From Asparagopsis taxiformis (taxonomy: Eukaryota > Rhodophyta > Florideophyceae > Bonnemaisoniales > Bonnemaisoniaceae): a DNA stretch of 64,000 nucleotides. The notes under the pieces are model-generated. The model saw nothing but the letters and a program-made list of their open reading frames with translations, searched no databases and was not told the origin of the DNA. Of the stretch, positions 12,490 through 64,000 are shown one piece after another (the stretch's first letter is position 1; each line of letters starts with the position of its first letter). Position numbers and translations under genes: made by a program. The stretch lies in assembly GCA_030407315.1 (NCBI GenBank), contig JALQPE010000171.1:164485-228484 (forward strand), read 5' to 3'.

Positions 12490-12522
12490 TAGGTTTATTG
12501 AATGGGATTACTTTGATGTACA

Positions 12523-13116
12523 TTAAGATTGTTTGTTCTGCAAGAGCCACTTGCCAACGCTAGTCGTCGGGGCGTTTGGATCGCATTGAGCTTTGGGACA
12601 CCTGAAGTGGCAGGATCTACGACGGGCCTCGAGGGTGGGCAATGGGTTTGAGGTCTTGACTTGCTCCAATGTCGGCTCATCGGTTAGGTCTGTGTAGACA
12701 CGAGCCAGGTTAGAAAAAGAAATTTCACGCTTCGGCAAGGTGTCCATTCTGTCCAAATCGGATGAAGAATAGGACTTGACACTTTCCGGTAGCTTTTTTT
12801 TATGGGAAGAATGATAGGACAGTGTCGTCTTGGTGGACCCATCGAGATTTTCTTGAGAACGATTGGCCAGAGTGTTTTCACGCGTCTGCTTGGCAGTTCC
12901 TTTTCTCTCGTCTTCAACGAAACTGGAAACGAAGGGGCGTGTAGTGATCCATGACGTAAAGATAACTTGTCTTCCGCGCAAGTTGGACAGCATGGAAGCA
13001 ATTCTTTGACGTCGAGAACGCTTGTTCGACTGGGCGTGCTGCCGCTGTTCGGACATTGTTGAAGCAGATGACACACTAGTGGTCGACGGCAACGCCGGGT
13101 GCTCGGACGTGCGCAT
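12523..13116 (-). CDS. Serine/basic-rich hypothetical protein
   Basis: This 197-residue frame runs from the ATG at 13116; the frame is open further upstream to 13296, and another ATG is at 13056. It is rich in Ser, Thr, Arg and Lys with no membrane segment. A conserved-looking patch is R-R-Q-R-I-A-S-M-L-S-N-L-R-G-R-Q, and the tail carries C-H-F-R-C-P-K-A-Q-C, three cysteines that could hold zinc. It ends 33 bases from the stop of the convergent NudC/Sel1 gene. An overlapping frame of 201 codons exists in another phase, so coding status is uncertain. I do not recognise a family. Confidence 0.4.
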   Translation of the reverse strand: MRTSEHPALPSTTSVSSASTMSEQRQHAQSNKRSRRQRIASMLSNLRGRQVIFTSWITTRPFVSSFVEDERKGTAKQTRENTLANRSQENLDGSTKTTLSYHSSHKKKLPESVKSYSSSDLDRMDTLPKREISFSNLARVYTDLTDEPTLEQVKTSNPLPTLEARRRSCHFRCPKAQCDPNAPTTSVGKWLLQNKQS

Positions 13117-14531: not shown

Positions 14532-17165
14532 TCATCGACTGAGCGGCATTGCACCAGGATGCGTCAGTTGTACGCCGCCAATTTGTCCCATACTAGGAGC
14601 CAGAGGTGTTTGGTAAGGAAACTGTGAATGGATGTCATACGACGGTACACGCACTTGGAAACTACCACCCAATGGGGCAAACGTTTGATGAGCAGGTTGT
14701 GTTTGTTGCCGCAACCGAGCATCTGTGCTCGCTTGTAATGGCGTCGCTGCTGCAGCATGCGCATTGTGACCGATCTGAGCGGCATATGGCATTTGTGCAG
14801 GTGCAGCTATTGGGGCAGCCTGCGCCATTGGTGCGGCCTGTGCCATTGGTGCGGCCTGTGCCATTGGTGCGGCCTGTGCTATTGGTACGGCCTGTGCCAT
14901 TGGTACGGCATGTGCCATTGGTACACTAGTTGGAAATGCACCAGGTTCTACTGCTGCACCGCCGTTACTCAACGGTCCGTGCTGATAGACGTGATGTGCT
15001 TCTGCTGGCGCAACGCTCGCTCCTGCCCTGTTTTGAAGAAGATGGAGAGGATCCAGTCCAGTGGCTGCAGTCGCACCCGCGCCGCCCGCATACGGATTAG
15101 CGATGGCTTGGAAAAATTCCGGAGGTGGAGGACGTCCGTAGGCAGTCATATACTGTTCCGCTAGTTTCATTTGCATCGCCCTTTCTCCACCCGGTCCATT
15201 GACAACTTCCGCAACGTCCCTCATTGCTGACGCTATTGCCTCGCCTCTTTCCGTGATGGCGTGCGCTTCACCTATAGCTTGATTCACAATTTCCATTTGT
15301 CGTGCTTGTGATAGTTTCATCTGTGCCTGCATTTCGCCGTCCGCACGATTGATGATTGCTTCGCGTTCCGCTTCCGATGCTAAAATATCCGCCCGCTTCT
15401 GTCGCTCCGCCTGAACTTCACGGTCCATCGTGGCTCGCAGCTCATCCGGCGGATCGATGTCCTTCAGTTCGAAACGAGTGCAGCGTAGTCCCCAGGGGCG
15501 TGCTGCCTGGTTGATCAGCGTCACGATTCGCTCGTTCAATTCGTACCGCTGCTCAAACGCTTTGTCCAGTGTAATTCGTCCAATTTCACTGCGAACGCAC
15601 GTTTGTGCTAGAAGCACCACTGACCGATACGGATTTTCAACTCCGTATGATGCTGCCACTGGATCTTCAATACGAATGAATAGTAATCCATTTACGCGCA
15701 CGCTTACATTGTCGTACGTATAGCATTGCTGCATGGGGATAGGGATACTGGTTTCCTTTAGCGAGTGACGAAACGCAATTTCTTCAATGCATGGCATTAT
15801 AAAGTTATTTCCCGCATTCAGTTTACGATGATATCGTCCGCCACGCTCGATGATGAAAGCTTCGTTTTGCGGAACCTGCACATGAAACATACCACGCGGT
15901 GTCTCAGGCTTCAGCGCATTTTCACTTATCAGGTCATCATCCTCCATGGCTTCAAACTGCCCCTCTTCATGCATCATTCCTGGTTTGTTCCAGTACTTTT
16001 GTTTCTTCTTCTCCTCTTCTTCAAGTTTTTTCTTCTCCTTCTCTTTCTTATTGAGAAACATTTTCCTGACCAGATACCCAATAGTAGCAACGGCAAGAGC
16101 CACTAAAGCAGCTTTGAAAACGTTTTTCTTCGTAATTTTGGTATCCTTTTCACTTCCAGAATGATCTCCATGTTCATGTTCATCTCCATGTTCATCTTCA
16201 TGTTCATCATCGAAGCCCCCAAATTTATCTTCAATCTTGTCCTTGATTCCTTTCAATGGAAATCTGCCACTCTCAGATGGATGTGAACCTTTTGAATCTT
16301 TCTTCACACCCCTCGGTTTACTTCCAGCTGCACGAGTGCTCTGTGGACTCGGCAAATCATCATAACCCTCAAGGAACTGAGCACCAAATTCGTCATAAAC
16401 AGTTACACGATCTCTGGAATCTAATCCACGGTTTCCATCAGAACTGGAATGCAACGTACCAGCTGGGTAATCACGGTTGGAGCCCCTTGAATACTGCTGA
16501 GAACGCTTCTGAGACGGAGATGGATGTGATCTCTTAACAGCACGTTGCGCAGCTGGAGATACAACACGATTAGCTCGATTATCCGGTGAACCTGGAGTTG
16601 TTGAACCAGGGTAGCCACTCGGCGGCTCTCCAGTAGAGCGGCTGCGCTGAAATGCAACATCAGGCGGGAGGGGATGATGCATCGGTGACCCTGCCGGGGT
16701 AGCGGAGCGTGAGCGACGCTGCGAGCGGCGTTGCGAGGGGCGCTTTGACGACGATGACGACGTCCTTTTCTGAGAAGAATCACGACGCTGGATGGGATGC
16801 GGAGAAGCCGGGTAGACACGTTGCTTGCGACTGGAGGTGTTTCCCGACCTTACCTTCCTAGAGCTATGTGTTTTGGAGCGCTGGAGGGAATCACGCGGAG
16901 AAGCATGTTGCGACGACGAATGGGTGCTGCGACTTCGGAATGCATCGTCTCGCGGTGAATGGATGTCGTTTGGAGAGCGGCGCGAATCTATGGGTTGGGT
17001 ACGCCGATCACGTTTGTTGTACGAGGTGTCCGGCGGAGCGCTGGAGTGACGGCGCTTGGGGTGTTTGTTTCGGGTCCGGCTTCTTCGCGGCGGCGGCGCA
17101 CGCAGACTGTCTGGCACCAGGAACGAGAAGCCGTTGAACTCGAATAGCGGCCGCTTTTTGGGCAT
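14532..17165 (-). CDS. SPFH/Band-7 protein of the stomatin-like-2 type with long N-terminal extension
   Basis: The protein has 877 residues. The first 340 or so are disordered and rich in Ser, Arg, Pro and His (many R-R-S and S-Q-R groups), with an acidic His/Glu/Asp block near 310-335. A single hydrophobic helix (about 345-367) is followed by a run of Lys and Glu. The SPFH domain (about 423-600) is close to stomatin-like protein 2: V-P-Q-N-E-A-F-I-I-E-R-G-G-R, then D-N-V-S-V-R-V-N-G and R-S-E-I-G-R-I-T-L-D. A coiled coil rich in A-E-R-E-A/Q-A follows. Near 747-784 the tail has seven or more copies of an A-x-P-M-A-Q hexapeptide. SLP-2 proteins organise cardiolipin domains of mitochondria; ordinary members have 320-400 residues and enter by a short presequence, so targeting here is uncertain. 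The hexapeptide block corresponds to a degenerate 18-bp DNA repeat at about 14,812-14,925. Confidence 0.85.
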   Translation of the reverse strand: MPKKRPLFEFNGFSFLVPDSLRAPPPRRSRTRNKHPKRRHSSAPPDTSYNKRDRRTQPIDSRRSPNDIHSPRDDAFRSRSTHSSSQHASPRDSLQRSKTHSSRKVRSGNTSSRKQRVYPASPHPIQRRDSSQKRTSSSSSKRPSQRRSQRRSRSATPAGSPMHHPLPPDVAFQRSRSTGEPPSGYPGSTTPGSPDNRANRVVSPAAQRAVKRSHPSPSQKRSQQYSRGSNRDYPAGTLHSSSDGNRGLDSRDRVTVYDEFGAQFLEGYDDLPSPQSTRAAGSKPRGVKKDSKGSHPSESGRFPLKGIKDKIEDKFGGFDDEHEDEHGDEHEHGDHSGSEKDTKITKKNVFKAALVALAVATIGYLVRKMFLNKKEKEKKKLEEEEKKKQKYWNKPGMMHEEGQFEAMEDDDLISENALKPETPRGMFHVQVPQNEAFIIERGGRYHRKLNAGNNFIMPCIEEIAFRHSLKETSIPIPMQQCYTYDNVSVRVNGLLFIRIEDPVAASYGVENPYRSVVLLAQTCVRSEIGRITLDKAFEQRYELNERIVTLINQAARPWGLRCTRFELKDIDPPDELRATMDREVQAERQKRADILASEAEREAIINRADGEMQAQMKLSQARQMEIVNQAIGEAHAITERGEAIASAMRDVAEVVNGPGGERAMQMKLAEQYMTAYGRPPPPEFFQAIANPYAGGAGATAATGLDPLHLLQNRAGASVAPAEAHHVYQHGPLSNGGAAVEPGAFPTSVPMAHAVPMAQAVPIAQAAPMAQAAPMAQAAPMAQAAPIAAPAQMPYAAQIGHNAHAAAATPLQASTDARLRQQTQPAHQTFAPLGGSFQVRVPSYDIHSQFPYQTPLAPSMGQIGGVQLTHPGAMPLSR

Positions 17166-17388
17166 TATGGTTCACGTGCGGCTGGGACAGGAGGCTGTGA
17201 AATCAGAAGATGGTTTTCATTAGAGGGCGGCTGTGGAAGGAAAGCGTTCAATTAGAGCGGCAGGAGCATCTATGGTATTACGTAGAAAGATCCACTAAAT
17301 ATGACTTGGCAAAAAATTGATATGTTACGTTACGTATCTTGTTAACGTCTACGCCACCATCCCAGCTTACAGAGCTCAAGATCTCAAT

Positions 17389-19445
17389 ATGCTTCAACCA
17401 GCTCTCGATATCCATCCGTCCGTGCAGGCAGCGCTCCTCAACAACAAACCGATCGTCGCTCTAGAGTCGACCCTGTTAACGCACGGTCTACCCTATCCAG
17501 AAAACCTCACGTTATCAACTCAGCTCTCCGAAACGCTTCACGCGCAGCATGTCACACCAGCGACCATCGCCGTAATATCCGGAGTACCCCATGTAGGTCT
17601 AACACATGCTCAGCTACAACTTCTCTGTCAAACCGGAGCCACTATTCCCAAACTATCCACCCGCGATCTCGCCACCGCCTTTGCCAATCGCACCCATGGC
17701 GCTACGACCGTCGCAGCGACAATGTCCATCGCGTCTGCCGCCGGCATTCGGGTCTTTGCCACGGGCGGCATTGGTGGCGTGCATCGCCACGTAACCGACA
17801 GCTGGGACATATCCGCCGACATATCCGCACTGTCACAATACCCGATGCTAGTCGTATGCGCGGGTGTGAAATCCATTCTCGACGTAGCCAAAACGCTCCA
17901 GGCTTTAGAAACTGCCAATGTACCTGTGTTCGTTCTCAACCACCCGTCCTTCCCGGCCTTCTACACACGCGACACTGATTTGCCCGCGCCTGCAATTGTT
18001 CCAACTCCAGCTGCAGCCGCCCGAATCTTCCATCTAGCGCACTCCTCCCCAGCCTGTCTTCCCCGTCGCGGTGCCCTGCTAGCTGTTCCGATTCCGCGCC
18101 AACACCAGCCACAGCAATCTGATATTCAAAATGCAACAGACACTGCGCTTGCGGAACTGCGCCAACGGCCCGCTATTTCGTCCGGTAAAGTAACGCCCTT
18201 TCTGTTGCGCCGCGTCTCAGAATTGACTGATGGGGCGTCGCTGCGCGCAAACATCCAACTCGTGCTCAATAATGCTCGCGTTGCTGCTGCTGTGGCGCAG
18301 CAATTGTGTCGTCTGCAAGTATCTTCCGTGCAGTCAGAGCAGCAGGTGCTTGTTGTGGGTGCCGCTGCGTTGGATGTACATTGTAAGCCGTCAAATAGAC
18401 TGCGACCCGGTATATCAAATCCAGGCCATGTGCGCATGGCGGCTGGTGGCGTAGCAAAGAATGTCGCAGAAGCTGTTTTGTTTGGTGGTGGAAATGTCAA
18501 GTTTGTTTCTGCTGTTGGTGATGACACAACTGGAAAAGCTGTGATTGCCGCATTGCGATCCGTAGGCATCTCCACGGATACAATACATATTCACAGTGGT
18601 GTTGCCACTGCTACTTATGCTGCGGTTACAGATAGTGATGGAGAACTTTCGGTATGTTGCCTTGATTATTATTCTTGTCCTCACTTTTGCTCTGGTTGTA
18701 CCGCATATCTGCTAACATTTCGTGCTCTCTGTGAAAAACTAAGGTGGCTATTGCGGATATGGATGATATGTTCAATTCCAACAAATTCTCCATATTGGCA
18801 GAGAACAAACAAGCCATTGAAGAATCACTGCGTAACGTAAAAATTGCATGTATGGATGCAAACTTATCTGTGAACGACCTTCGCCAGCTAGTTTCGATGT
18901 GTCATGATGCCAAAGTTGAATGCTGGTTTGAACCGACCACAGCTATAAAATGTGTGCGCATTGTAGATGCACAGGTCCTGCACCATGTAACATACCTCTC
19001 TCCGAATAGCGGCGAGCTCAAAGCAATCGCTGAAAGACTGCTTCAAAGGAAAGGGATTGAAACTGGTGGGTTACACAATCAAAAAGGAGATTTCTCAGAT
19101 GCAATGCATGACTACTATGCCGAAAAGGTTCTGGAAGAGGGCGGTGGCGGGGTTCTAGGCCAACGGATCTATTGTACACGAGGAGCACGTGGGGTTACTC
19201 GGTATAGTTTTACTGAACGAGGGGGACGACATCAATTGCTCAAGCGGGATTTCGCTGCAGTACGGCTGGACCCTGAAAGAATAAAGAGCACAACGGGGGC
19301 CGGCGATTGTTTTGCAGGAGTCTGTCTAGCTGGATTAGCACGCGGCGCAGCAGAGAACGAATACATTATCGAAGGGATTAAGGCAGCTGCAAAATGTTGC
19401 ACTATTGAGGAAGCTGTACCGCGTCGACTGCAATCTAAAATGTAA
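17389..19445 (+). CDS. Pseudouridine-5'-phosphate glycosidase fused to PfkB-type pseudouridine kinase
   Basis: The coding sequence is 17389-18651 joined to 18744-19445 (654 residues). The N-terminal half is a PsuG/IndA glycosidase: A-L-E-S-T-L-L-T-H-G-L-P-Y-P, A-T-I-A-V-I-S-G-V-P-H-V-G-L, and the active-site lysine segment C-A-G-V-K-S-I-L-D-V. The C-terminal half is a PfkB-family sugar kinase with A-G-G-V-A-K-N-V-A-E-A near its start and the catalytic G-A-G-D in T-T-G-A-G-D-C-F-A-G. Together they would phosphorylate pseudouridine and split the product into uracil and ribose 5-phosphate, salvaging it from RNA turnover. The two-domain order is well known in eukaryotes. The intron restores the expected E-L-S-V-A-I-A-D-M sequence. 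The frame is open to 17317 but only through a TTG, so 17389 is the first ATG. Confidence 0.93.
18652..18743 (+). other. Spliceosomal intron (92 nt) in the pseudouridine glycosidase/kinase gene
   Basis: The 5' splice site is GTATGT, a CTAAC branch-point-like sequence sits about 33 bases before the end, and the 3' site is ACTAAG. It is phase 0. Reading through it destroys the PfkB frame, while removing it joins two parts of a conserved kinase segment exactly. Confidence 0.92.
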
Positions 19446-49507: not shown

Positions 49508-51019
49508 ATGAAGACCAAATTCCTTTCAACCTTGACGCTTTTTTCCCTCATTTTTCTCCTCGTTGCCCCAGTATCAACACAGGAACTAGGTCGCCCGATT
49601 TCTGCTGCTGACTATGCCCCACTTCTTTCAATATTTATTCGTAGACTTGAACAGCCCTTGCAATATCGTGCTTTCTTTTTCTATGACGCGATTTGGTACA
49701 ATAACCTTGTTGTGCACTCCGAGAATGGCCTGCTCATCAATGGTTCGGAGCCCTCGTTCCGTCGAGCTTCACTACCGGAGCAATCAATTGGTTATGCAGT
49801 CTCTTCAATCGCTGTTTCTGTAACGCTCGGGATATTCGGGGAAGAAGATGCTCGCGCTGTGCAGGATGTCGCTGCCCAACAATTATTCTTGGATTTACCA
49901 CTCCGAGCTGAAGACGTACCTGAAGACCACCCTGCTCGAGAAGATCTGTTAGTGGGCTTCGCTCTTGCCGAAGAATTTCAGTCTGGTCAAGCAAACAATG
50001 GCTTTAATGAAGATGGAACTGATGACGGATCAACGATAAACCTCATACCTTTTGAGGATATAACTGGTTATGAGCCAATTAACACACCGAAAACTATCAA
50101 GGACTTAAGGCGCTGGACACCACTTATTGAAAGTCCACGGCCGCAATCTATAGGAGCTTACAATGTGCAACTTGCAATAACTCCACAGGCAGCGTTTGTT
50201 AATACCACCGTCTTGTCTGACGAGTTTGCTGCCTCTCAACGAGTACCAAGTCCTTACCCAGATGAGATCCTGCGCGATGCGACATGTGCACCAGATCAAG
50301 TGAATCTGCAGTCAATGCAAGTACAACGAATTTGTCAGGATACCGAAGAGGCACTTTCGGCTCTTGCAGGCTTGACAGAAGAACAAAAAATCCTCTCTGA
50401 GTACTTCGATGACCCTGTATCGAGCCTAACTTTAAATGTGCCTCGTTTGGCGGCAGCAGCCAATGTCAGTTTTCGTGATTCATTCATAATATTGATTTTG
50501 TTGAATGGGGGGATGTACGAAACCACATTGTTGACCTGGAGAGAGAAGAGAAGACATGACGCTGTCAGGCCGACGACACTAATTCAACAACTGTACAATG
50601 AAGTAGATATCGAGAACGGTGCTAATGTGGCTGCACAAGGTCAAGACTTTGCTTCATTCTTACGTACACCACCAAGACAGGAATATCCTAGTTTGCATGC
50701 AGCGCAGTGCCAGTATTATGCTGACGCTGCCGAAATTGTTTTGGGGCTAAGCGAGTTGAATATCGATGTCGTTATAGAGCAGGGAAGTTCAGACATAGCT
50801 CCAAGTCAGTTGCCTTCGTCCAACTTCACGATAGAAATCCGTGATTTACAGAGGGACATTGCTAGTGCATGCAGTGAGAGTCGAATATGGAGCGGTACAA
50901 ACCTTCGTCCAGCAGTTGAACGCGGGCGAGAGCTTGGGAGCAGGATTGCCAACGAGTATGTGAATCGACTTAGCTGTCTGCTACCAGACAATGACATACT
51001 TCCTCCTTGTCGACAATAA
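49508..51019 (+). CDS. Vanadium-haloperoxidase/PAP2-superfamily protein, secreted, ligand His replaced
   Basis: The protein has 503 residues. A signal peptide (K-T-K then L-F-S-L-I-F-L-L-V-A-P) should be cleaved near residue 24. The mature part follows the algal-type vanadium haloperoxidase plan. In the first active-site motif (K-x6-R-P) Lys347 and Arg354 are present in K-R-R-H-D-A-V-R-P. The second is P-S-L-H (394-397) instead of P-S-G-H, keeping the acid-base His397. The third, S-R-x5-H, reads S-R-I-W-S-G-T-N, so Arg459 is kept but the axial histidine that bonds vanadium is Asn465. Most family members oxidise bromide or chloride with peroxide in the cell wall. This one may be inactive, act as a phosphatase, or use another ligand. 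The sequence is otherwise uninterrupted, so it is not an obvious pseudogene. Confidence 0.82.
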   Translation: MKTKFLSTLTLFSLIFLLVAPVSTQELGRPISAADYAPLLSIFIRRLEQPLQYRAFFFYDAIWYNNLVVHSENGLLINGSEPSFRRASLPEQSIGYAVSSIAVSVTLGIFGEEDARAVQDVAAQQLFLDLPLRAEDVPEDHPAREDLLVGFALAEEFQSGQANNGFNEDGTDDGSTINLIPFEDITGYEPINTPKTIKDLRRWTPLIESPRPQSIGAYNVQLAITPQAAFVNTTVLSDEFAASQRVPSPYPDEILRDATCAPDQVNLQSMQVQRICQDTEEALSALAGLTEEQKILSEYFDDPVSSLTLNVPRLAAAANVSFRDSFIILILLNGGMYETTLLTWREKRRHDAVRPTTLIQQLYNEVDIENGANVAAQGQDFASFLRTPPRQEYPSLHAAQCQYYADAAEIVLGLSELNIDVVIEQGSSDIAPSQLPSSNFTIEIRDLQRDIASACSESRIWSGTNLRPAVERGRELGSRIANEYVNRLSCLLPDNDILPPCRQ

Positions 51020-52180: not shown

Positions 52181-52833
52181 GGGCTGTAGTATACGTGGCA
52201 ATTCCGAAATTGCCAATATTTACGATTTCCGCGGAATTCGAATTTCCGCGGACCCCGAGCGATAACAGCAATGCACGAACATTGCTGGCGCGTGCGCGCG
52301 CGCAACCGGCACACGTGTGCAACGAATGTACTGGCAACGGCCAACCCAACGGACCAACGGGTCCCCACGTGCGACCCACAAGGTCCTTTCCCATTCGGGG
52401 ACGTTACGAGCAGTGTTTACACTGTAAAGCGATGCCATCGTGGCTAAATAGGTATTGGCATCATGCCGGGAGGGAAAGGGGACAAGCATCGAACGAGCAA
52501 CGGCTCTAGTCTACGACTGACTTCTACGTTTACGTTTACGTTTTCGCCTAACGAGGCTTCGTCTCCGTCGAGCTGCGCACTCCCTACCCATCGCCACACG
52601 TGAGGCTGATTGCGTGTAGTGCCTCCGGGCTTGGTTGAGAGCGCCTCCGGTGACGTGCCACCTCGTTTACCGAACGTAATCCTCGCGTGGATAGTTGCGT
52701 CGTGACGCTCGTTTCTACTCGCTAACCCATTCTCTACCTTCTACCGTCCTAAAAATACAGTCAAACACCAGCGGGTGGCACTGTTCGTTCGTTTCGTTAA
52801 GGACAGCGTGTCCACTAGCTCGTACCAGCTACT
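52181..52833 (+). repeat. Left terminal inverted repeat
   Basis: It pairs with 53938-54572 in inverted orientation. It contains internal (TACGTT)n-like short repeats near 52,530-52,545. The innermost shared sequence is CGTACCAGCTACT. Confidence 0.85.
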
Positions 52834-52953
52834 CCTAGAACTACTAACGTACCACACTGGTCTTCCGACCTAGAAGTTGCTACGAGCAAAACGACAACTA
52901 ACGAGGTTGAGCTCCTTTACGTTACGAAAGATACGTGCTACGGACTACGGTCT

Positions 52954-53932
52954 ATGAATTACGCTGTGTCGAACCCCAGCGCGTCGCCCAGGCAACCGTT
53001 GCCAACGTCAGCGGACGCCGAAGCCGACGTGGCCTTGTCAGCAGAAGCGCTCATCGCGACCGATCGATCTATCCCGACGGATATCGAGGCGATCGGCCAG
53101 ATACCACGTACGGTAAGCCCGTTTGAGTCCTTGGGTATGGACCCCGCAACGCGCGGTCAGCTCGAGCAAGGGAACGTGACTCCCACGGCACTACGTGTAG
53201 TGTACGAAGACCTTCGAGGTCACATCGAAAGGGCGAGCGACGCGGCCGTCGACGAAGCCGTAAGGCAGAGACTCGGAGTCTCGCAGCGCGAGGCTTCTGC
53301 GTTACGTGAACGCTCAGCGACCCTCGAACGGGAAAACGAAGACTTACGAAACCGCTTCTCCGCCGTGGAGGAAGACTCGACTCGTTTGTCGTAGTTTTTT
53401 AACGAAATCGTCGCCGGACGTTCCGCTCCGCCGAGCGGAAGCGATCCGAATTACGAAGAAGGCTCGCGCGCCTATAACTCGCAATCCTCCCCGGCCGTTC
53501 CGGGAGGATACCCCTCAACACCTGGACCGACGACCCCGACAACGTACGGAAGGGGGGCGACAGTGCAACGAGCCATCGCCAACCGACGAGACGCCAGGAA
53601 GGCAATTATGTTTTCACGATACCCCTGACCACGTGCGGTCAGCGGGCGCAGAACGAACTGCACAATTCGATACGAGAGCTCCCACGCCACGCGAGGCGTA
53701 CATTCCGTGGCTGGGTGCGTTCGGCACGACGGACACGCGAGTCCACGAAAACGAACATACCGACGCGGTACGCTTACCAGGGAACGCCCTCGAACCCGTT
53801 TGCCACACGTTGGCAGAGCACACGACAATGCTCGACGCATTTGCGAACGTGATGTCGTACCGCATGTACCGACTGAACGATGTGCGCGAACATCTCTACG
53901 TTAATGAGAGTTGTGGAACGATAGTTCGTTAG
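52954..53932 (+). pseudogene. Decayed coiled-coil protein frame inside the inverted-repeat element
   Basis: From the ATG at 52954 a 146-residue frame encodes an Ala/Asp/Arg-rich protein with a clear heptad coiled coil at about residues 95-140 (L-R-E-R-S-A-T-L-E-R-E-N-E-D-L). It ends at TAG 53392-53394. In the same frame another 80 codons of protein-like sequence follow (with G-G-Y-P-S-T-P-G-P-T-T-P-T-T-Y-G), then a TGA. The last part continues in a different frame to 53932. This pattern of one in-frame stop plus at least one frameshift suggests an eroded gene. A Gag-like structural protein is a guess from the coiled coil and size; no zinc knuckle or protease is seen. Confidence 0.5.
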
Positions 53933-53937
53933 ACGAA

Positions 53938-54572
53938 GTAGCTGGTACGAGCTAGTGGACACGCTGTCCTTACGAAACGAACGAACAGTCCACCCGCTGG
54001 TGTTTTGACTGTATGTTAGGTAGAACGGTAGAGATAGGTTAGCGAGTAGACACGAGCGTCACGACGCAACAATCCACGCGAGGATTACGTTAGCGGACGA
54101 GGTGGTACGTCACCGGAGGCGCTCTCAACCAAGCCCGGAGGCACTACACGCAATCAGCCTTACGTGCGGCGATGGGTAGGGAGTACGCAGCTCGACGGAG
54201 ACGAAGCCTCGCTAGGCAAAACGTAAACGTAGAAGTCAGTCGTAGACTAGAGCCGTTGCTCGTTCGATGAATTGTCCCCTTTCCCTCCCGGCACGATGCC
54301 AATACCTATTTAGCCACGAGGGCATCGCTTTACAGTGTAAACACTGCTCGTAACGTCCCCGAATGGAAAGGACCTTGTGGGTCGCACGTAGGGACCCGTT
54401 GGTCCGGTGGCCGTTGCCAATACGTTCGTTGCACACGTGTGCCGGTTGCGCGCGCGCACGCGCCAGCAATGTTCGTGCATTGCTGTTATCGCTCGGGTCC
54501 GCGGAAATTCATAATTCGCGGAAATCGTAATTATTTGCAATTTCGGAATTGCCACATATACTACACAGCCCC
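53938..54572 (-). repeat. Right terminal inverted repeat
   Basis: It is the reverse complement of 52181-52833 with scattered substitutions and short indels. The small length difference (about 18 bases) is due to those indels. Confidence 0.85.
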
Positions 54573-55140
54573 ACCCCCACACGTGGACGTCCCGGCCACG
54601 CGAGGCCCGTCAGGACGCGCCTGAGACACGGGGCCGTGGCGCCTTTTCGGGTACAACTGCGGACGTGGCAGTTGTCCCGAAAAATCTCGTTTAAACGTAC
54701 GCGGCCCGGTTGGCTGATCGAATCGCCACGGCGCCGGAGCGCGCGCGTGCGCTCCGGCTCTTTCGTAATCATCGAGGCCCGCCCGTTGGCATCGTACGTC
54801 AATGCCTCGCTTAGGCGTTTCCCTGCAACGAATGCAGTGTCCAATTCCACCAAGCGGGTGTGCTTCAATTCAGCGTGATACGTGCGCAGGCCGCGGCCCT
54901 TTCGTGAATCTGCCAGCGGGCATTACGACAAACGGTCGTCCGAAGGTTATTTAAGCCGCGGCTTAACGTGATAGCGATCGTCGCTCACCCTTCCTCTCAC
55001 CATCGTCATCCAGGCCGTTGCCTTTCGTTCTCCCTTATCTCTTTCCCCCCGCTGGGTACTGCTACCTCCGTTCATTTCGTTCTCTTGTTTCGTCTAGCCC
55101 GCGCGGCTCTCGTTTTCGTGCTCGTTGCACTGTTCGTCTT
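54573..55140. other. GC-rich accessory DNA with three strong hairpins/palindromes
   Basis: There is no gene. The structures are: 54644-54683, 16-bp arms (TTTTCGGG then ACAACTGC, one bulged T) around a 7-nt loop; 54733-54758, perfect 10-bp arms GCCGGAGCGC with a 6-nt loop; 54951-54966, the perfect palindrome TTAAGCCGCGGCTTAA. A 119-codon minus frame at 54509-54868 crosses the element border and is judged non-coding. Confidence 0.6.
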
Positions 55141-55174
55141 CGTTGCGTACGTCTGTGTTCTCGGAAATGGACGC

Positions 55175-55440
55175 GGACGTCCACAACCTCTAGTACACCT
55201 AGTATTACTAGGCGGACGTCCATGTTCTCCAGTATTTTTGGATGTCCGCCTAGAACCGGACGTCCATGCGGTCTAGTACGTCTAGTATTACTAGGGCGAC
55301 ATTCATTGTTTCTAGTACCACGGATGTCCCCCTCGGGATGGACTTCCGCCATGTCTATGTCCACCTAGGACGGGCGCCGGTTCAGAAATTCAAAAATTTC
55401 GACCCCAGAAATTTCTGCCGCCGTGCTCGACATGGATGTC
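55175..55440. repeat. Cluster of GGACGTCC motifs and CTAGTATTACTAG tandem units
   Basis: GGACGTCC occurs at 55175, 55214 and 55258, and a GGATGTCC variant at 55240. Two copies of a unit with CTAGTAC...CTAGTATTACTAGG start near 55190 and 55273 (period about 83 bp). The GGACGTCC motif is also in every core unit of the large repeat array further right. Confidence 0.7.
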
Positions 55441-56774
55441 CGCATCCATCACGGCGACCACTCTATTTTTCCTTGTCGGTCGACTCCAATTTCGTCTTTA
55501 ATTTTTTCATCCTCTCGCTCACACCCCCTTCCTGTTGGTGCTCACCTCCCCCGTACTGTACCTCAAACACCCCCAATACCACTCTAGCACGCATTTTCAG
55601 ATACCTATCCCGCTTCCACGGTGCACACCTCCATTCCATACCTACTTTTCTGCTCTACCGTACAGATTTCGTATAACCAGTCCTCATACTACCTCAGAAT
55701 AGGGCAAAACACCCCCTATCTCCTCGACCATGCTCTCCCCCATCACCTTTGAAACGTATTGTTCTTCAGTACCCTCTCTCCTCTACCCTCAACCCCTCTC
55801 CTTCGCCCTCTACACAAACTTCCCTGCAGCTTACTCTTCCAAAACCTCTCACTCCCCATCCCGTACCCGACCTGCTCCACCCCTCCCTCCCTCAGCTGCT
55901 CCATGCCCCCACGCCATCCGCATCTTCGATACCGTATACACCACCACCACCGGCCCACGCTCCCGCACTGCGGGGTGGCTCCCCCGCCGTATCCCCAGAA
56001 ACCTCCCCGCTCTGAAACACATATCAACCCCCCACTTCGCACCCTTCCTCCCACTCCCCTCCCTCCCCAAATACAATAACCCCTTCTTCTCCATCACATC
56101 CCCACTCACCACAGCCAGAACAGACGCCACCCCCTCCCCTTCTTTCTCCTCACTTTCCTAAAAACCCCTCCTCTCGGCGCCTTCAACCGCACCCTCCTAC
56201 GGTCCCACCTAAACACCTCCTCCGCCCTCACTACCCCAACACCCCGCAGCGTCTCCCCAATCCCCATAATATGCTTGTCGGCACTCCTCTCCGAATCACA
56301 ATCCATTCTAAACCCGCACTCCGTACATTTCCACCTCCCCCTGTACCATCCCAAGATTCCATCCCCCCACAGAACACATCCTCATACCACAGAAGAATTT
56401 TCTTCCTCTCATACCTCATCCTTAAAACCTCCATCAGCTCCATGTAAATTTCGATGAAAATATTTCTCTACTATGCAATCTCAAACATGTATGAGCCTAT
56501 GCCTTTCCGCTTTGTCAACCCTGAATATTGGTACTCATGTATTCATAAAATAGGGCCACCCACATCCCTATCCCGTTCTGCAAGCTTTACAAACCACTAG
56601 ACGCATACTCCACAACTATACAACAAACACTACTCGCTATTTCAGACGACGCGGTACACAAGTAGCGTAGTGTCAACCTTCCGTGACGCCTTCCCTGATG
56701 CGTACAAGTGGGAAACACGTCTAGACGTATATCACAAGTGAGCGCGGGAATTTTCGGCACAGGAGATGCTGGGC
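55441..56774. other. About 1 kb of pyrimidine-rich DNA, no intact gene
   Basis: From about 55,500 to 56,450 the plus strand is mostly C and T, with few G. Frames of 60-143 codons on both strands are by-products of this bias. The only item of interest is the possible zinc-ribbon remnant on the minus strand described separately. Confidence 0.55.
56106..56443 (-). pseudogene. Possible remnant with TnpB/Fanzor-like zinc-ribbon end
   Basis: On the minus strand one frame reads W-K-C-T-E-C-G-F-R-M-D-C-D, then S-A-D-K-H-I-M (codons around 56,330-56,270). In TnpB and its eukaryotic relative Fanzor, the second half of the zinc ribbon is followed by D-x-D and N-A-A-x-N-I-L. The order and spacing are similar, with a two-residue insert. 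An adjacent frame (56231-56443) carries a tyrosine/lysine-rich segment that could be the upstream part after a frameshift. The first Cys pair and the catalytic carboxylates are not found, so this is at best an eroded fragment and may be chance. Confidence 0.2.
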
Positions 56775-56868
56775 CACCAAATTGATTTTTCGGAAATTTT
56801 AGAATTTCTGGGCTGGCCAGCAATGCAATCGAGCTGGACATCCACCGGACGTCCATTTCAGGTTGGTC
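56775..56868 (+). repeat. Core unit A0, partial and diverged
   Basis: It keeps only the right third of the core, from the GGAATTT-like part through CCACCGGACGTCC and CAGGTTGGTC. The hairpin and the 14-bp palindrome are absent. Confidence 0.8.
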
Positions 56869-57021
56869 GCGAGAGGGTGGGGGGGGACCATGATGAAACA
56901 AGGACCAAGACCTTTCCCTGACGTGTTGAGCCTGAAATCGACCCTTCGTGAGACGCGATTTTGGCTTACAGTTGGTGCTAATAGAAGCCAGTGATAGCCC
57001 CGATCGGGGCGGCAGCCGGCT

Positions 57022-57320
57022 CCGGCTTACAGTTGGTGCTTACAGACGCCAGTGATAGCCCCCGATCGGGGCCGGCGGTCGGTTCCTGGGGCCGTTGTGG
57101 CCAAATTAGACACCCTGATTTGAATTAAAATTTGGGCTATTCTCAAAAACATGCACATGTGAACATGTTTTTGAGATGGGGGTGTGCCGTACGGCACAAT
57201 CGACCCGCCCAAATCGATGTTTTTTGCAATATTTTTTTGTGCCCGAAATTGTAGAATTTCTGGGCTGGCCAGCAATGCATCTGAGCTGGACATCCACCGG
57301 ACGTCCATTTCAGGTTGGTC
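57022..57320 (+). repeat. Core unit A1
   Basis: A full core with hairpin 57142-57175 and palindrome 57184-57197. It is followed by spacer X, which is nearly identical in A3 and A5 contexts. Confidence 0.9.
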
Positions 57321-57530
57321 GTGTGCTGCCTACATCCACGCATTGCAGAAACTAAGCCAGCGGGTTCACTACTAATACAAAGTACACGGAATATGAGTAA
57401 CGTGATAGGTGAGTAGTGTTTGTGTTGAGGGAGTAAGGCGGGACCATGATGAAACAGGAAAAAGATGTCACCCAAGCATAACTTAGGCTTGAAGCCTGGA
57501 ATCGACCCATCTTTCGGCGCCATTTAGCCT

Positions 57531-57822
57531 CACAGTTAGTGCTTACAGAAGCCAGTGATGACCCCGCTCGGGGCGGCGGCTCCGGTTCCTGGGGCCGTTG
57601 TGGCCAAATTAGACACCCTGATTTGAATTAAAATTTGGGCTATTCTCAAAAACATGCACATGTGAACATGTTTTTGAGATGGGGGTGTGCCGTACGGCAC
57701 AATCGACCGCCCAAATCGATGTTTTTTGCAATATTTTTTTCTGCCCTGAATTGTAGAATTTCTGGGCTGGCCAGCAATGCATCTGAGCTGGACATCCACC
57801 GGACGTCCATTTCAGGTTGGTC
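57531..57822 (+). repeat. Core unit A2
   Basis: A full core with hairpin 57645-57678 and palindrome 57687-57700. It is followed by the short spacer Y. Confidence 0.9.
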
Positions 57823-57917
57823 GTGAGAGAGTGAGGCGGGACCATGATGGAACAAGGACCAAGACCTGTCCCTGGCGTATTGAGCCTGAAATTGACCCTT
57901 CGTGAGACGCGATTTTG

Positions 57918-58210
57918 GCTTACAGTTAGTGCTTACAGAAGCCAGTGATGGCCCCACTCGGGGCGGCGGCCGGTTCCTGGGGCCGTTGTGGCCAAATTAG
58001 ACACCTTGATTTGAATTAAAATTTGGGCTATTCTCAAAAACATGCACATGTGAACATGTTTTTGAGATGGGGGTGTGCCGTACGGCACAATCCACCCGCC
58101 CAAATCGATGTTTTTTGCAATATTTTTTTGTGCCCGAAATTGTAGAATTTCTGGGCTGGCCAGCAATGCATCTGAGCTGGACATCCACGGACGTCCATTT
58201 CAGGTTGGTC
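57918..58210 (+). repeat. Core unit A3
   Basis: A full core with hairpin 58033-58066 and palindrome 58075-58088. One base is missing in the terminal CCACCGGACGTCC (reads CCACGGACGTCC). Confidence 0.9.
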
Positions 58211-58420
58211 GTGTGCTGCCTACATCCACGCATTGCAGAAACTAAGCCAGCGGGTTCACTACTAATACAAAGTACACGGAATATGAGTAACGTGATAGGT
58301 GAGTAGTGTTGTGTTGAGGGAGTAAGGCGGGACCATGATGAAACAGGGAAAAAGATGTCACCCAAGCATAACTTAGGCTTCAAGCCTGGAATCGAACCTT
58401 CGTAAGACGCGATTTTGGCT

Positions 58421-58710
58421 TACAGTTAGTGCTTACAGAAGCCAGTGATGACCCCGCTCGGGGCGGCGGCCGGTTCCTGGGGCCGTTGTGGCCAAATTAG
58501 ACACCCTGATTTGAATTAAAATTTGGGCTATTCTCAAAAACATGCACATGTGAACATGTTTTTGAGATGGGGGTGTGCCGTACGGCACAATCGACCGCCC
58601 AAATCGATGTTTTTTGCAATATTTTTTTCTGCCCTGAATTGTAGAGTTTCTGGGCTGGCCAGCAATGCATCTGAGCTGGACATCCACCGGACGTCCATTT
58701 CAGGTTGATC
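58421..58710 (+). repeat. Core unit A4
   Basis: A full core with hairpin 58533-58566 and palindrome 58575-58588. The array loses similarity about 45 bases after it, on the side of the dioxygenase gene's 3' end. Confidence 0.9.
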
Positions 58711-59024
58711 GTGTATCGTGCACGTCCACCCATTACCGGAAGCAAGTAGGCGATGAAGCACGTACAAACCCAATTGTTCTGCTATTTCTAGCATAGACCA
58801 TCGAGTCTAGAGATGTGAGGGAATCGTCCTGGAAATCATGCTCCAACCCACGAGGGAATGGACAATCTAGTTTGAAAGCATGGAACGGAAGTACATTATA
58901 CTAGGTTCATAGATTGGAAGTGATAAAGGAGATGATTATATTCTCGATAATTGTTTACCAAAGTAGTAGTTGTTAAGCTATCTAGCCGTCGGAAAATTCT
59001 TCTTCCTCTTCGTCCTCACTATAT

Positions 59025-62000
59025 TCAGGATCTCCCGGCAGAATAGGCGTTATCGGCAACTGTGGAGTTGAATAGCTCAAGATGAATTTTGACCGGTGTG
59101 AGGGTTCTCTTCTTGGGAGCTTCTGTCGTCTTCATCCGCATGATTCCGAGTTGCCCTGTCTTCGGCCTACGATCTTTCTTGACCGGGATGGGAACAACTG
59201 TCTTGTGGCGAACATTGACAGGTGCCGGTTGACTTTGCCTGGCAGACCGGCGCGGAGCATTGGCGATTACTTCTTCTTCGAATCCCAACCGCCTGATGAA
59301 ACCAAACGAAACATTGTCGGGAATCGGATACGACGCATTCCTGAAATACGTGTGATACCTCGTTGTCGTGTGTGACACAACTCTGTCGACATGCCCTGCC
59401 CCGGCATGTTGTACATGGCCGTGACCGATGAAGACTGAACGTGGCGGAACGATTACCTTCTTCAGCTTCATCGTCTTGGCGTACATATCTAATTCCAGCG
59501 CTTTGGAAAAGACGTACTTGTGGGACCCTGGACACACCCAGATAGGGAATGGGTCATCTCCGTTGGCAATAACAAAGTAACCCGGAAGTTGATCTTTGCG
59601 GTCGCGAGGAGGAACAGGGAAATCATTGTGTGGGACCTGCCGAGGACACCCCTTTCCCGTTATCAAAAACCGTCCCCCAGATGCCGGCATGACAAGTTTT
59701 TCTCCCGGTAAACCGCACTCCTCCAGCCCTATCAGCCGGACAAGGATTCCCAACCACACATCCAGCAGGGCTCGCCGCGTCACAAACTTGAACCGGTCGA
59801 TATGCGTCTCATCGTTCTCGGCATAGTCAACCAGGCAGTGGCGCGTAGACGTGAAGCGAGCCCTCCCCTCATTCCGGTTCTTCTCATCTGTTTCATCGTC
59901 CCCAGTATTGACAATGGGACTCCACAGCTGCCGGTTCCCAGGGTCCTTGTGCACCTCCTCCCCCTCCCACGTTCCCAAAAAGTACCGAAACAATTCCTGG
60001 TTAGGAATTTCTTCCATGAGACCCAAGTCAAATGGGAACTTGTCCGACGCATCGAGGTAGCTTACATCCGCGAAATTGTGCATCACCGTATACCCTCGCT
60101 CGTTGATTTCCGTTCGGCAATTGTGGAAGTACGCCATACCAGTGCCGGCCTCATACGAATCCTTCCAGCTTGTAGACATTCGCGCAACCTGGGCGAAGTC
60201 CAGCCTCGAGGGTAGAAACGTCGATGTAGGCTCACACATCGCCTTGGCAGCCATCTTCCACGCTGCGAAAAACATCGGATAGATGGTGTCGATCTCGAAA
60301 ACAAGATGACGAGCCCGATGTTGTTCCGGAATATGCAGCCCCTCAAACACAGGGTCCATCGCCACTTGTTTCAAATACCTCACCTCTCTGCCCTCCTCAT
60401 CGATTTCCACACTCTCCAATAACAACCTGAGCTCAATCGGGGGCAGACAGCCAACCCTCACCGATGCGATGACGTCCGCGGGACGCTGCGCCAGATGATG
60501 CCCTTCAGCTCGGTCTTTGACTTCGAAATCGTCGGGAAGAGATGGCATCCGGTCGTCGAACAGGAGGTCGTGTTCAGAAGGAGAGTCACGAACGATGTAA
60601 CCGTCTTCATCGACTTCCACTCCTTCCGGAACAGTGAATGTAATTGTCACTTCGCGGACCCCCTTGCTTTCGACTTGGCCCACGTCTGCACCCTGTTTGT
60701 CTTCCTCGTCCGAAGCGGTATGGACAGATTCTTGGTTGGAGGGAGTCGCACCAGCACGTTGGTTATCTTGGGGGACAATCTCAACGGCAGAATCGGGGGA
60801 ACGGGCGGAGTCTTCGTCAACCTCATCACCGGAAGCAGTGGCTTGTTGTTGATCGGTGGGTTTATCAACAACGGCCTGCTCTTCTTCCCCGGCGGATTGT
60901 TGTACCACAACCGGCTCTTCTTCCTCGAGGCGTGTGCTCCCCGTCGAGCGAAGTCGCTGTGAACGGCGGCGGATGCCATGCGAAGCAGGCTCATGTTCGA
61001 CATTCCGCTGCTTCTTGTGAGTGAGTCTCACATTGGCAGCAGAAGGGCGGCGTTTGCGTCGAGCCTTAGTCTTCTTCTTCAATGTCGGATTGAAAAACTC
61101 TTTCAAGTTCGTTTCCAAATCCTGTAAACGCGTGGTTCTCCGTCGCATTCGAACCTCACTGCTCCGGTCGTCCCCTCTATACATTGCAATGGCATTGGTG
61201 AGATGCCATTGCAACTCCTTCGGCTGCTTAACCGACCCAATTGCCATCTCTGTGCTCAGAAATGACTTGCGCATAATACTCTTTGGGCGCCCAAACGCAG
61301 CGTACAGAGAATTTGCTATTGCAGTCACGCGACGGACGTATGTATAGAAGTCGTTCACGTCAAAGCGTCCATCCGGACGTCCACCATGAGCAGGGTTCAA
61401 GTACTCCGAAAGACCACGCAAGACGAAGACAAAGTTTTCTTCCAGCAACTCGCGCACTATCTTGTGGTCCAGGTGCGTTATCCCAATCTCGTTGCGGCGC
61501 TCGGAATTGTTCAGCTCACGCAACACTTCGTCGAGAACAGGATGCTTCAGCGTTGCTATAGCCAAACGCGTCCACCGCCGGGCCGTGTTCGTTGAATTCA
61601 TCATCCCCATGAACTGCGCCTCGAACAATGTTCGGATGACATCAGACTCACGCAAGTCGCCAGCGTTTTCCACGTTATTTGCAACAGCAATCGTACGGAT
61701 GAACTGCTGGATGGACGACAAGATTCGAACCAGGGAGCGCTCCGTCAGTTGCGTCCCAGTCGTATGGTTCGACTCTGCACTCTTGTGGATGATCTCATGA
61801 GGCTGGAGATCACTGTCGTCCTTGCGGCGAAGGTAGTACACATCCAGAGGCTGAGTAACCCAGCGCAAGCGGTTTGCCTCCTGTGGCAGCTTGGTTCTGT
61901 GCATACGGGTGAGGCGCGTGAAGTCATCCGCAATGCTATGCATAGCATTGAGACGATGCAGTCCGTCGATCACGGTCACGTTCGCATTGGCATGGAATTT

Positions 62001-62936
62001 GCCATTCTGGAACAGACGCGTGTCGGCGGACAAATGCGTGTTCTGCGACCTCAGCACCGTCACAGTGATACGCGAAGAGCTCACATACCCCACCGCCAAC
62101 ATATTGTTGCGCAGGTCCTCCACGTGGTCTTCTTTGACATCGCGAAGGGTCACGGCCGGTTCCACTAGCTGCCTCACCAACACAGTCGCTCCTTCTCCGA
62201 CGTAATCCGACGTCACAAACTTGGGCACCATAATTTGCGTCCCCTGCTGCTCACGAATGCTTTCCGCCACCTCCGGTTCGTCGTCCACCTCGGTTACGTC
62301 CTGCGTAGTAGCTTCGGTGACGTTGGAGCGAGCAGGGTGCTTCGTGCCTCCACTGGAGGCTCTGGCAGAGCGAGCAGGGCGCTTCGTGCCTCCCGAAACC
62401 GGGACGGAGCGTGCTGGATGCTTCGTACCCCCCGAACCAGTGATTTCGCCTGCTGGACCGGTACTGGGCATCCGTCCCGAGCTGGCCTGGTTCGTCGCTG
62501 CGTTGAAGTTTGACGCTGCAGCAGGGGTACGAATGTCGCTAGGGCCATCCTCCGCAGCGGGGCGCATCATCCGAGTATCCCAAGGGTAAAACGCCGCGGC
62601 GTATGCTCCACCCATCGTCTCCGGCGGTCCCTCGGCGCCATCAAACATGTACGGGAACGGGAGGTCCTTGAACTTGTCCTTAGTCGCAATGTTGCGCACG
62701 ACGATATAGTCGGCCTCGTCGGTTTCCGGCAGCTTGTGGTTGTGCAGCGTGCGCGGAAGGCCAACATCGCCACCAGCAGTGCTCACCGAAGCCGTCCCAA
62801 TATGCACAGCCGCACCGTCCACGTCCGCAAACAAGTCGACATCGACGCCGCGCTTGAGTCCGCGCGACTCCGCTGACGCGCTCACTTGATCGCCGCAAAC
62901 CGTTGAAAACAAACTGCTGAAATGCGTATCCGCCAT
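59025..62936 (-). CDS. ParB/Srx-like domain fused to 2-oxoglutarate/Fe(II) dioxygenase
   Basis: From the ATG at 62936 the protein has 1,303 residues. Residues 1-250 are mostly disordered and include three G-G-T-K-H/R-P-A-R-S repeats (about 170-205). A ParB/sulfiredoxin-like domain lies at about 265-335: a strand-rich stretch ending in V-I-D-G-L-H-R-L-N-A-M (Asp324, His327, Arg328), the D/G-x-H-R signature of ParB N-terminal domains. A helical region (about 375-560) follows, then a basic patch (K-K-K-T-K-A-R-R-K-R-R) that looks like a nuclear signal, then an acidic linker. The C-terminal domain has H-N-D (His1103, Asp1105), distal His1177 in V-Q-H-A-G-A-G and Arg1193, the iron and 2-oxoglutarate ligands of PhyH-like oxygenases. 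The upstream frame to 63119 lacks an earlier convincing start. The substrate is unknown; DNA or chromatin is inferred. It sits between two blocks of the same repeat. Confidence 0.75.
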   Translation of the reverse strand: MADTHFSSLFSTVCGDQVSASAESRGLKRGVDVDLFADVDGAAVHIGTASVSTAGGDVGLPRTLHNHKLPETDEADYIVVRNIATKDKFKDLPFPYMFDGAEGPPETMGGAYAAAFYPWDTRMMRPAAEDGPSDIRTPAAASNFNAATNQASSGRMPSTGPAGEITGSGGTKHPARSVPVSGGTKRPARSARASSGGTKHPARSNVTEATTQDVTEVDDEPEVAESIREQQGTQIMVPKFVTSDYVGEGATVLVRQLVEPAVTLRDVKEDHVEDLRNNMLAVGYVSSSRITVTVLRSQNTHLSADTRLFQNGKFHANANVTVIDGLHRLNAMHSIADDFTRLTRMHRTKLPQEANRLRWVTQPLDVYYLRRKDDSDLQPHEIIHKSAESNHTTGTQLTERSLVRILSSIQQFIRTIAVANNVENAGDLRESDVIRTLFEAQFMGMMNSTNTARRWTRLAIATLKHPVLDEVLRELNNSERRNEIGITHLDHKIVRELLEENFVFVLRGLSEYLNPAHGGRPDGRFDVNDFYTYVRRVTAIANSLYAAFGRPKSIMRKSFLSTEMAIGSVKQPKELQWHLTNAIAMYRGDDRSSEVRMRRRTTRLQDLETNLKEFFNPTLKKKTKARRKRRPSAANVRLTHKKQRNVEHEPASHGIRRRSQRLRSTGSTRLEEEEPVVVQQSAGEEEQAVVDKPTDQQQATASGDEVDEDSARSPDSAVEIVPQDNQRAGATPSNQESVHTASDEEDKQGADVGQVESKGVREVTITFTVPEGVEVDEDGYIVRDSPSEHDLLFDDRMPSLPDDFEVKDRAEGHHLAQRPADVIASVRVGCLPPIELRLLLESVEIDEEGREVRYLKQVAMDPVFEGLHIPEQHRARHLVFEIDTIYPMFFAAWKMAAKAMCEPTSTFLPSRLDFAQVARMSTSWKDSYEAGTGMAYFHNCRTEINERGYTVMHNFADVSYLDASDKFPFDLGLMEEIPNQELFRYFLGTWEGEEVHKDPGNRQLWSPIVNTGDDETDEKNRNEGRARFTSTRHCLVDYAENDETHIDRFKFVTRRALLDVWLGILVRLIGLEECGLPGEKLVMPASGGRFLITGKGCPRQVPHNDFPVPPRDRKDQLPGYFVIANGDDPFPIWVCPGSHKYVFSKALELDMYAKTMKLKKVIVPPRSVFIGHGHVQHAGAGHVDRVVSHTTTRYHTYFRNASYPIPDNVSFGFIRRLGFEEEVIANAPRRSARQSQPAPVNVRHKTVVPIPVKKDRRPKTGQLGIMRMKTTEAPKKRTLTPVKIHLELFNSTVADNAYSAGRS

Positions 62937-63278
62937 GGTTGTTGAGTTGGAAAGGAAAAGAGATGGTTGACGTTGACGTATTCGAGTGATGTGGATGGTA
63001 TGTTTCACGTTAAGTTGAAGAATGGTCGTGAACGCCAATCGCTGGAAATAATAACACAATACAACCGAAATTTTGTTAGGTACACACCTATCGTGACCGC
63101 TGGAATGCAAGACAGGCAATCGAGATGTGAGTGTCCGTTCAGAACGGGCCCGAGTCGGGCTCTCGAAACCTGACGAGGTGGCGTGAAGCAGGCAGTGTCC
63201 TTGATGTGTAATGTGTTAAAATTACAGCTGTCAAGCTAGGCGGCTTTGGGGCGGCTGCGAGCACCCCTTTATCCGGGG
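62937..63278. other. 5' flank of the ParB-dioxygenase gene
   Basis: This is 342 bp that should hold the gene's promoter. The right repeat block begins abruptly at about 63,279 with ACACCCTGATTTGA. Confidence 0.5.
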
Positions 63279-63488
63279 AACACCCTGATTTGAGTTAAAA
63301 TTTGGGCTATTCTCAAAAACATGCACATGTGAACATGTTTTTGAGATGGGGGTGTGCCGTACGGCACAATCGACCCGCCCAAATCGTTGATTTTTGCAAG
63401 ATTTTTTGTGCCCGAAATTTTAGAATTTCTGGGCTGGCCAGCAGTGCATCTGAGATGGACATCCACCGGACGTCCATTCAGGTTGGTC
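63279..63488 (+). repeat. Core unit A5, left-truncated
   Basis: It begins exactly at the gene-side border of the repeat block. The hairpin and palindrome are intact. Confidence 0.85.
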
Positions 63489-63700
63489 GTGTGCTGCCTA
63501 CATCCACGCATTGCAGCAACTAAGCAGGCGGGTTCACTACTAATATAAAGTGCACGGAATATGAGTAACGTGATGGGTGAGTAGTGTTTCTGTTGAGGGA
63601 GTAAGGCGGAACCATGATGAAACACGGAAGAAGATTTCTCCCTAGCATAAGTTAGGCTTGAAGCCTGCAATCGACCCATCTTCCGGCGCCATTTAGCCTC

Positions 63701-63988
63701 ACAGTTAGTGCTTACAGAAGCCAGTGATGACCCCGCTCGGGGCGGCGGCCGGTTCCTGGGGCCGTTGTGGCCAAATTAGACACCCTGATTTGAATTAAAA
63801 TTTGGGCTATTCTCAAAAACATGCACATGTGAACATGTTTTTGAAATGGGGGTGTGCCGTACGGCACAAACGACCCGCTGAAATCGTTGATTTTTTTACA
63901 ATTTTTTTGTGCCGAAATTTTAGAATTTCCGGGCTGGCAGCAGTGCAATCGAGCTGGACATCCACCGGACGTGCATTTCAGGTTGGTC
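63701..63988 (+). repeat. Core unit A6
   Basis: A full core. It reads CCGGACGTGC where the others have CCGGACGTCC, and one hairpin arm ends in TTGAA instead of TTGAG. Confidence 0.85.
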
Positions 63989-64000
63989 GTGAGAAGAGTG

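Follow-up and report, generated by a model that had tools for sequence, protein, structure and literature searches.

In the genome assembly of the red alga Asparagopsis taxiformis, we examined a 64,000-nt stretch that runs to the end of contig C171 (hereafter the window). An initial annotation of this stretch had singled out a gene on the minus strand, at 59025..62936, as coding for a protein that joins a ParB/Srx-like domain to a 2-oxoglutarate (2OG)-Fe(II) dioxygenase. The 1,303-codon frame and the motif positions given there (residues 324-328, 1103/1105, 1177 and 1193) were found to be exact when the sequence was re-read, and the basic patch it mentioned corresponds to basic stretches at residues 620-630 and 655-663. 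What had been described as a lone gene is, however, part of a multi-copy transposon, in which it accompanies a Plavaka-type transposase and a DNA methyltransferase-SET fusion. The parts of the gene are listed below, where "members" denotes the window protein together with three distant relatives, one of which (P0002) ends before the distal histidine.

59025..62936, minus: ParB-like/2OG-oxygenase gene, with its ATG at 62936 and the stop codon included; 1,303 codons, no internal stop
61677..62231, minus: ParB/Srx-like stretch, residues 236-420, bounds approximate; alignable in all four members, no significant profile match
61953..61967, minus: DGLHR motif, residues 324-328; from sequence and alignment
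61125..61676, minus: conserved segment that follows the ParB-like core, residues 421-604; from alignment, probably helical as judged from the sequence
60390..61124, minus: low-complexity linker, residues 605-849, which holds both basic patches; from alignment
59292..60389, minus: 2OG-Fe(II) oxygenase-like domain, residues 850-1215, bounds approximate; best-conserved part of the protein
59622..59630, minus: HxD, His1103 and Asp1105 (HND, 1103-1105), predicted iron ligands; from sequence and alignment
59406..59408, minus: His1177 in QHAG, predicted third iron ligand; from sequence and alignment
59358..59360, minus: Arg1193 in RYHxYF, predicted 2OG ligand; from sequence and alignment

The homology between copies of this gene was found to extend beyond it in both directions. 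On its 3′ side the edge of homology is sharp, with all 33 long matches from outside the window starting at window positions 55139-55150, and the terminus CGTCTGTGTTCTCGG... was joined to a differing flank in each of the 20 junctions that were fetched. The suggestion that the gene is encoded by mobile DNA is thus borne out, as it is the cargo of a DNA transposon with defined ends and many copies. The portion of the element present in the window comprises the following features.

55150..64000, no strand assigned: transposon portion within the window, with its terminus at 55150 and truncated at 64000, where contig C171 stops (228484)
55150..55176, plus: element terminus CGTCTGTGTTCTCGGAAATGGACGCGG, the first 27 nt of the terminal inverted repeat; from 20 junctions and the tag count
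56795..58746, no strand assigned: array of ~0.4-0.5-kb repeats between gene and terminus; from repeat analysis and the distance steps in 54 copies
63249..63992, no strand assigned: upstream repeats of the same family as that array; from repeat analysis and similar repeats in copies

In order to estimate copy numbers, sequence tags for the terminus and for three genes of the element were counted across the assembly (141.5 Mb, 3,156 contigs), allowing 3 mismatches and using reversed tags as a control. The terminus gave 2,747 matches, and the transposase, methyltransferase and oxygenase genes gave 1,001, 943 and 905, respectively; the controls gave none. An excess of terminus tags would be expected from elements with an end on either side, many of them carrying deletions or truncated where a contig stops. 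Among the best 36 of 4,507 candidates, at least 36 copies of the oxygenase gene were identified on 36 different contigs, with 98-100% identity across the matched region, and an in-frame stop was present in three of the 36.

A complete copy of the element was located at C1565:48757-71243. It spans 22,487 bp with a GC content of 51.4% and is bounded by 34-bp terminal inverted repeats (32 of 34 positions identical) with the termini CGTCTG..CAGACG; 43-bp tandem repeats lie just within its left terminus (L051 3540-4020). Its genes are arranged in the order Plavaka-type transposase, opposite-strand coiled-coil frame, methyltransferase-SET and ParB-like/oxygenase. The transposase matched the Plavaka family PF18759 of Pfam (E 5.3e-9, 36.2 bits against a cut-off of 26.3, profile positions 207-318 of 325). 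The methyltransferase-SET protein, 1,065 aa in one frame, matched both N6_N4_Mtase (PF01555, E 3.4e-15) and SET (E 1e-6), and carries the motifs DPPY at residue 507 and DPFSG, of the DPFxG type, at residue 746. For its C-terminal 444 aa, the PDB neighbours were the adenine methylase DpnA (9.5e-7), CcrM (0.002) and KMT5A (0.019). The coiled-coil protein (L030 2460-4843, minus strand) is at least 620 aa long and gave weak coiled-coil Pfam matches only, with no confident family.

The arrangement of these genes recurs among copies. In the listed exact tag places on contigs C9-C190, an element end in the correct orientation was found 3.0-4.6 kb downstream of 54 of the 69 oxygenase tags, and the gene-to-end distances are stepped by ~0.4-0.5 kb, which fits variable numbers of the flanking repeats. 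A methyltransferase tag lay within 16 kb upstream in 29 of the 69; 13 of these pairs were co-stranded, 10 of them at a spacing of 5.90-5.92 kb, and in the other 16 the tags were on opposite strands. Likewise, a transposase tag stood no more than 12 kb from 33 of the 57 listed methyltransferase tags; the two were on opposite strands, at 5.5-5.8 kb, in 26 cases and co-stranded in 7. Transposase and oxygenase gene were co-stranded and 9.1-9.6 kb apart in all four contigs common to both protein match listings. At C133:7-21949 and C164:10857-51055, two oppositely oriented oxygenase tags were seen between facing ends, giving these regions a palindromic or composite look.

Both orientations of the methyltransferase tag relative to the other two genes thus occur among copies. 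In the complete copy the methyltransferase-SET gene is flanked by inverted 555-bp repeats (93.7% identity; element coordinates 8564-14737, L030/L012), and L027 (1-2156) bears the adjoining stretch in reverse. Recombination between the 555-bp repeats is the simplest cause of the inversion of this module, which resembles an invertible switch, and the expression of the methyltransferase module could be switched in this manner.

Variants common to at least two of 20 oxygenase-gene copies, drawn from the 36 best-scoring ones, comprised 22 synonymous and 10 replacement changes, a ratio of replacement to synonymous polymorphism (pN/pS) of 0.14, which points to a protein under purifying selection in those lineages that multiplied. 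No stop was present within the first 1,280 codons in any of the 20. At its 3′ end the window copy departs from most of the others, its final ~20 codons (window 59025-59090) being off-frame relative to 31 of the 36 listed copies: the alignments covered residues 1-1283 in 30 copies, 1-1282 in one and 1-1303 in five, the window copy included. The gene in the C1565 copy has 1,318 codons. An acidic tail forms the C-terminus of intact copies, in the region where the window copy has lost the frame.

Relatives of the protein were sought among ~5.8 billion proteins, with scoring of the 8,000 candidates that had the most words in common. Three distant metagenomic relatives of 1,060-1,185 aa were obtained, alignable over most of their length except for the linkers, where similarity was weak or absent. 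Over the ParB-like stretch they are 18-27% identical to the window protein, and its oxygenase-like domain shares 37% identity with that of P0001 over 364 aligned columns. DGxHR, His1103 and Asp1105 are kept in all four aligned members, and H1177, A1178, G1179, R1193, Y1194 and H1195 in the three that extend that far. On its own the DGxHR motif is weak, since 87 of 5,000 residue shuffles (1.7%) produced D-G-x-H-R by chance. A profile search with the C-terminal half returned two further fragments, P0004, which is identical to the window protein over the aligned part, and P0005, in which HTD, the distal histidine and an RYY motif are retained on reading its sequence; a profile of the ParB-like half gave no match among 6,920 candidates. 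Scans of viral contigs with the protein and with two alignments gave no pattern match in the first case and 11 in each of the others, none of which was confirmed. The two-domain organisation that had been claimed is upheld in so far as the protein has two conserved halves and a complete set of 2OG-oxygenase ligands.

Sequence searches with the window protein matched no Pfam family and no PDB chain, a comparison of the four members with PHROGs gave one unnamed family (E 0.02, one member), and one of two PDB profile searches gave a single chain at E 1, the other none. The remark that no named family has such a domain order agrees with these family and sequence searches, in which none was found. 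A DGxHR or GxxR motif after a strand-rich N-terminal part is presumably of the ParB/Srx superfamily motif class, the strands of the present protein being predicted from sequence, and we consider the N-terminal half to be ParB/Srx-like, with its fold unproven. The C-terminal half appears to be an Fe(II)/2OG oxygenase-like domain, in which HxD...H would bind iron and the arginine 2OG. In an AlphaFold model of this part, strands adjoin the HxD and PGSH/QHAG/RYH motifs in a plausible order, albeit at a mean predicted local distance difference test score (pLDDT) of 37.7; we take this order to be that expected of a PhyH-like jelly roll. Of the initial domain proposal, the ligand residues proved conserved, whereas no ParB/Srx match reached significance and the jelly roll is unproven at such a pLDDT. 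A TET/JBP identity was not supported, as none of the four members matched Tet_JBP (PF12851) even with E values up to 10 allowed.

Taken as a whole, these observations led us to propose, with a probability of roughly 55%, that the gene is cargo of a ~22-kb Plavaka-type (CACTA-like) transposon amplified in the algal genome, and that it belongs to a modification system acting on DNA or chromatin marks. In such a system the ParB-like half would bind element DNA, possibly at the 0.4-0.5-kb repeats bordering the gene and the methyltransferase module, and would thereby bring the C-terminal oxygenase to the element. The oxygenase might then hydroxylate methylated bases, most simply the marks made by the N6/N4 methyltransferase that the element itself encodes, or else a nearby chromatin protein. 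Together with the SET domain, this activity could keep the chromatin of the element open or mark its DNA as self, so that the transposase would remain expressed. The link to DNA modification that had been suggested for the gene is strengthened by the methyltransferase-SET gene in the same element. A narrower version, which we put forward tentatively and rate well below even odds, is that the element has a private DNA-modification system, in which the methyltransferase-SET protein would write marks on the element's DNA and chromatin and the ParB-like/oxygenase protein would read its DNA and oxidise the marks, in a host with no detectable C5 methyltransferase and with a module that is possibly switchable.

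Several observations weigh against the main proposal. The four members gave no significant profile match to ParB, Srx, PhyH or TET/JBP; the best Pfam scores were those of Av_adeno_fibre (E 0.017) and DndB (E 0.21), each in one member, the latter being the sole, weak trace of a ParB/Srx fold. The oxygenase model was built with six sequences and is of low confidence, and a Foldseek search with it returned 171 matches at E up to 10, of which the best (0.44) was not significant. Singleton variants among the 20 gene copies (15 synonymous, 16 replacement) gave a pN/pS of 0.33, and the choice of copies from the best 36 of 4,507 candidates over-represents intact ones. No end was found in range of 15 of the 69 listed oxygenase tags, and no methyltransferase tag in range of 40; such absences could reflect a contig that stops short, a tag that has diverged or a copy with a deletion. 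In the complete copy the transposase frame is short (677 codons, against 1,036 in 51 of 66 listed copies), and no 2-3-bp target-site duplication is visible in that single copy. The terminal motif is also unlike those given for PlavakaA (TGT..ACA) and PlavakaB (CATCA..TGATG) (PMC12730594), so that the name Plavaka-type refers to the transposase.

Three other explanations were considered. The first, which we judge possible but well below even odds, is DNA hypermodification and not erasure, with methyltransferase and oxygenase acting in turn so that, as in phages, an oxidised base would be built on the element's DNA, where it could serve as a shield against host nucleases or a mark for the transposase. 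The presence of both genes in one element, as neighbours in 29 of the 69 listed copies, is consistent with this, as is our search of the assembly for C5-cytosine methyltransferases, which gave no candidates with controls positive in 10 of 14; there may consequently be little host 5-methylcytosine (5mC) to erase. No glycosyltransferase or kinase was recognised, however, among the searched part of the frames of the complete element. The second, which we regard as unlikely, is that the enzyme is a protein hydroxylase directed at histones, the transposase or ribosomal proteins, its ParB-like half serving to recruit it or to bind a nucleotide. For many PhyH-like enzymes the substrate is a small molecule or a protein, and the PGSH...QHAG...RYHxYF series and ligand spacing of the present protein look PhyH-like; the partner gene moreover bears a SET domain. 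Circumstantially, DNA is favoured instead by the ParB-like half and by the DNA methyltransferase that the element also carries. Lastly, although transposons commonly capture host genes, an ordinary multi-copy host gene family accidentally carried by transposons is highly improbable given the near-identity of the scored copies across 36 contigs and the recurring spacing to the terminus and partner genes, and no divergent paralogue appeared among the best 36 of the 4,507 candidates, the remainder of which could hide one.

TET/JBP-carrying transposons are thought to evade silencing via oxidation of 5mC. In fungi, such dioxygenases are carried by transposons of the KDZ, EnSpm, Plavaka, hAT, Helitron and other groups (Kojima 2025, PMC12730594), and the fungal enzyme CcTET oxidises N6-methyladenine (6mA) as well as 5mC (PMC12730594). 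The algal element resembles these, some of which are likewise Plavaka transposons, in that its cargo includes an Fe(II)/2OG oxygenase gene with the HxD/E...H type of triad (PMC12730594), but differs in the lack of a TET/JBP profile match, in the ParB-like fusion and in the methyltransferase-SET partner. The main text of that paper discusses 6mA as a TET substrate and does not contain the word ParB (PMC12730594). A SET histone methyltransferase aboard a DNA transposon has a parallel in Phytophthora HarbingerS and MuDR elements, where it is tied to other transposase superfamilies (PMC12730594); the algal SET domain is fused to an N6/N4 DNA methyltransferase. Giant Plavaka repeats are also known from the genome of Amoebidium (PMC11244446); tyrosine recombinases are frequent in them, and the section of that report considered here names no methyltransferase-SET or ParB-oxygenase protein in those repeats (PMC11244446). 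The N4CMT of bdelloid rotifers is, like the algal enzyme, a bacterial-type amino-methyltransferase in a eukaryote (PMC8885841).

Bdelloid N4CMT is a host gene, whereas its algal counterpart is carried by a transposon and bears a SET domain. In phage modification clusters, a DNA-binding ParB-like part works with an oxygenase and the genes are usually separate, whereas both halves are found here in one eukaryotic protein. Neither a ParB-like/2OG-oxygenase protein nor a transposon-borne N6/N4 methyltransferase-SET fusion was reported in the titles and abstract openings that our searches of the open-access literature listed, supplements excluded. The best reading is that of a transposon-encoded means of rewriting marks on DNA or chromatin, which parallels the fungal transposons that carry TET/JBP enzymes but is distinct from them. 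What sets it apart is the pairing of a methyltransferase-SET protein with an unrelated-looking ParB-like oxygenase, at ~900-1,000 tagged copies per gene, in a genome in which a host C5 methyltransferase went undetected. If the chemistry holds, a mobile element of a eukaryote would here bring its own kit for writing and oxidising DNA marks, and its known and abundant target would make the modified bases accessible to direct sequencing.

The assembly contains 13 phycobilisome-linker matches (the same search matched one of 14 control genomes, a cyanobacterium), and on contig C38 a phycobilisome linker occurs together with element ends. These matches indicate a red alga or, less probably, a glaucophyte, and a fungal host was rejected in view of them. 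Searches of the assembly for Tet_JBP and MT-A70 found none, with silent controls, so that absence is not shown. Element tags occur hundreds to thousands of times, and the end of the window's contig falls within a copy, so the family may account for much of the fragmentation of the assembly. Scans of the 64-kb window for Rfam families and tRNAs gave no matches, and of the 16 long window frames tested beside the oxygenase gene, 15 gave a Pfam match, each as one uninterrupted frame.

The flanks of the element, both in the window and on the left of the complete copy, are Gypsy-retroelement-like, with a zinc-knuckle gag-like frame (L051) and an integrase-like frame (L029) assigned by reading and not by profile. 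Contig C386 was considered as an empty allele and rejected, as it holds another copy of the target retroelement with its own transposon copy close by. A large inverted repeat with arms of ~600 nt, ~1.2 kb apart, occupies window 52185-54565 and is probably retroelement-derived, since parts of it match the retroelement-like left flank (L051) at 92-94%. Near the insertion, at window 49508-51019, lies a vanadium-haloperoxidase-like host gene (VCPO second domain, DUF6851), and window 17317-18840 codes for an indigoidine-synthase-A-like domain fused to a PfkB kinase domain.

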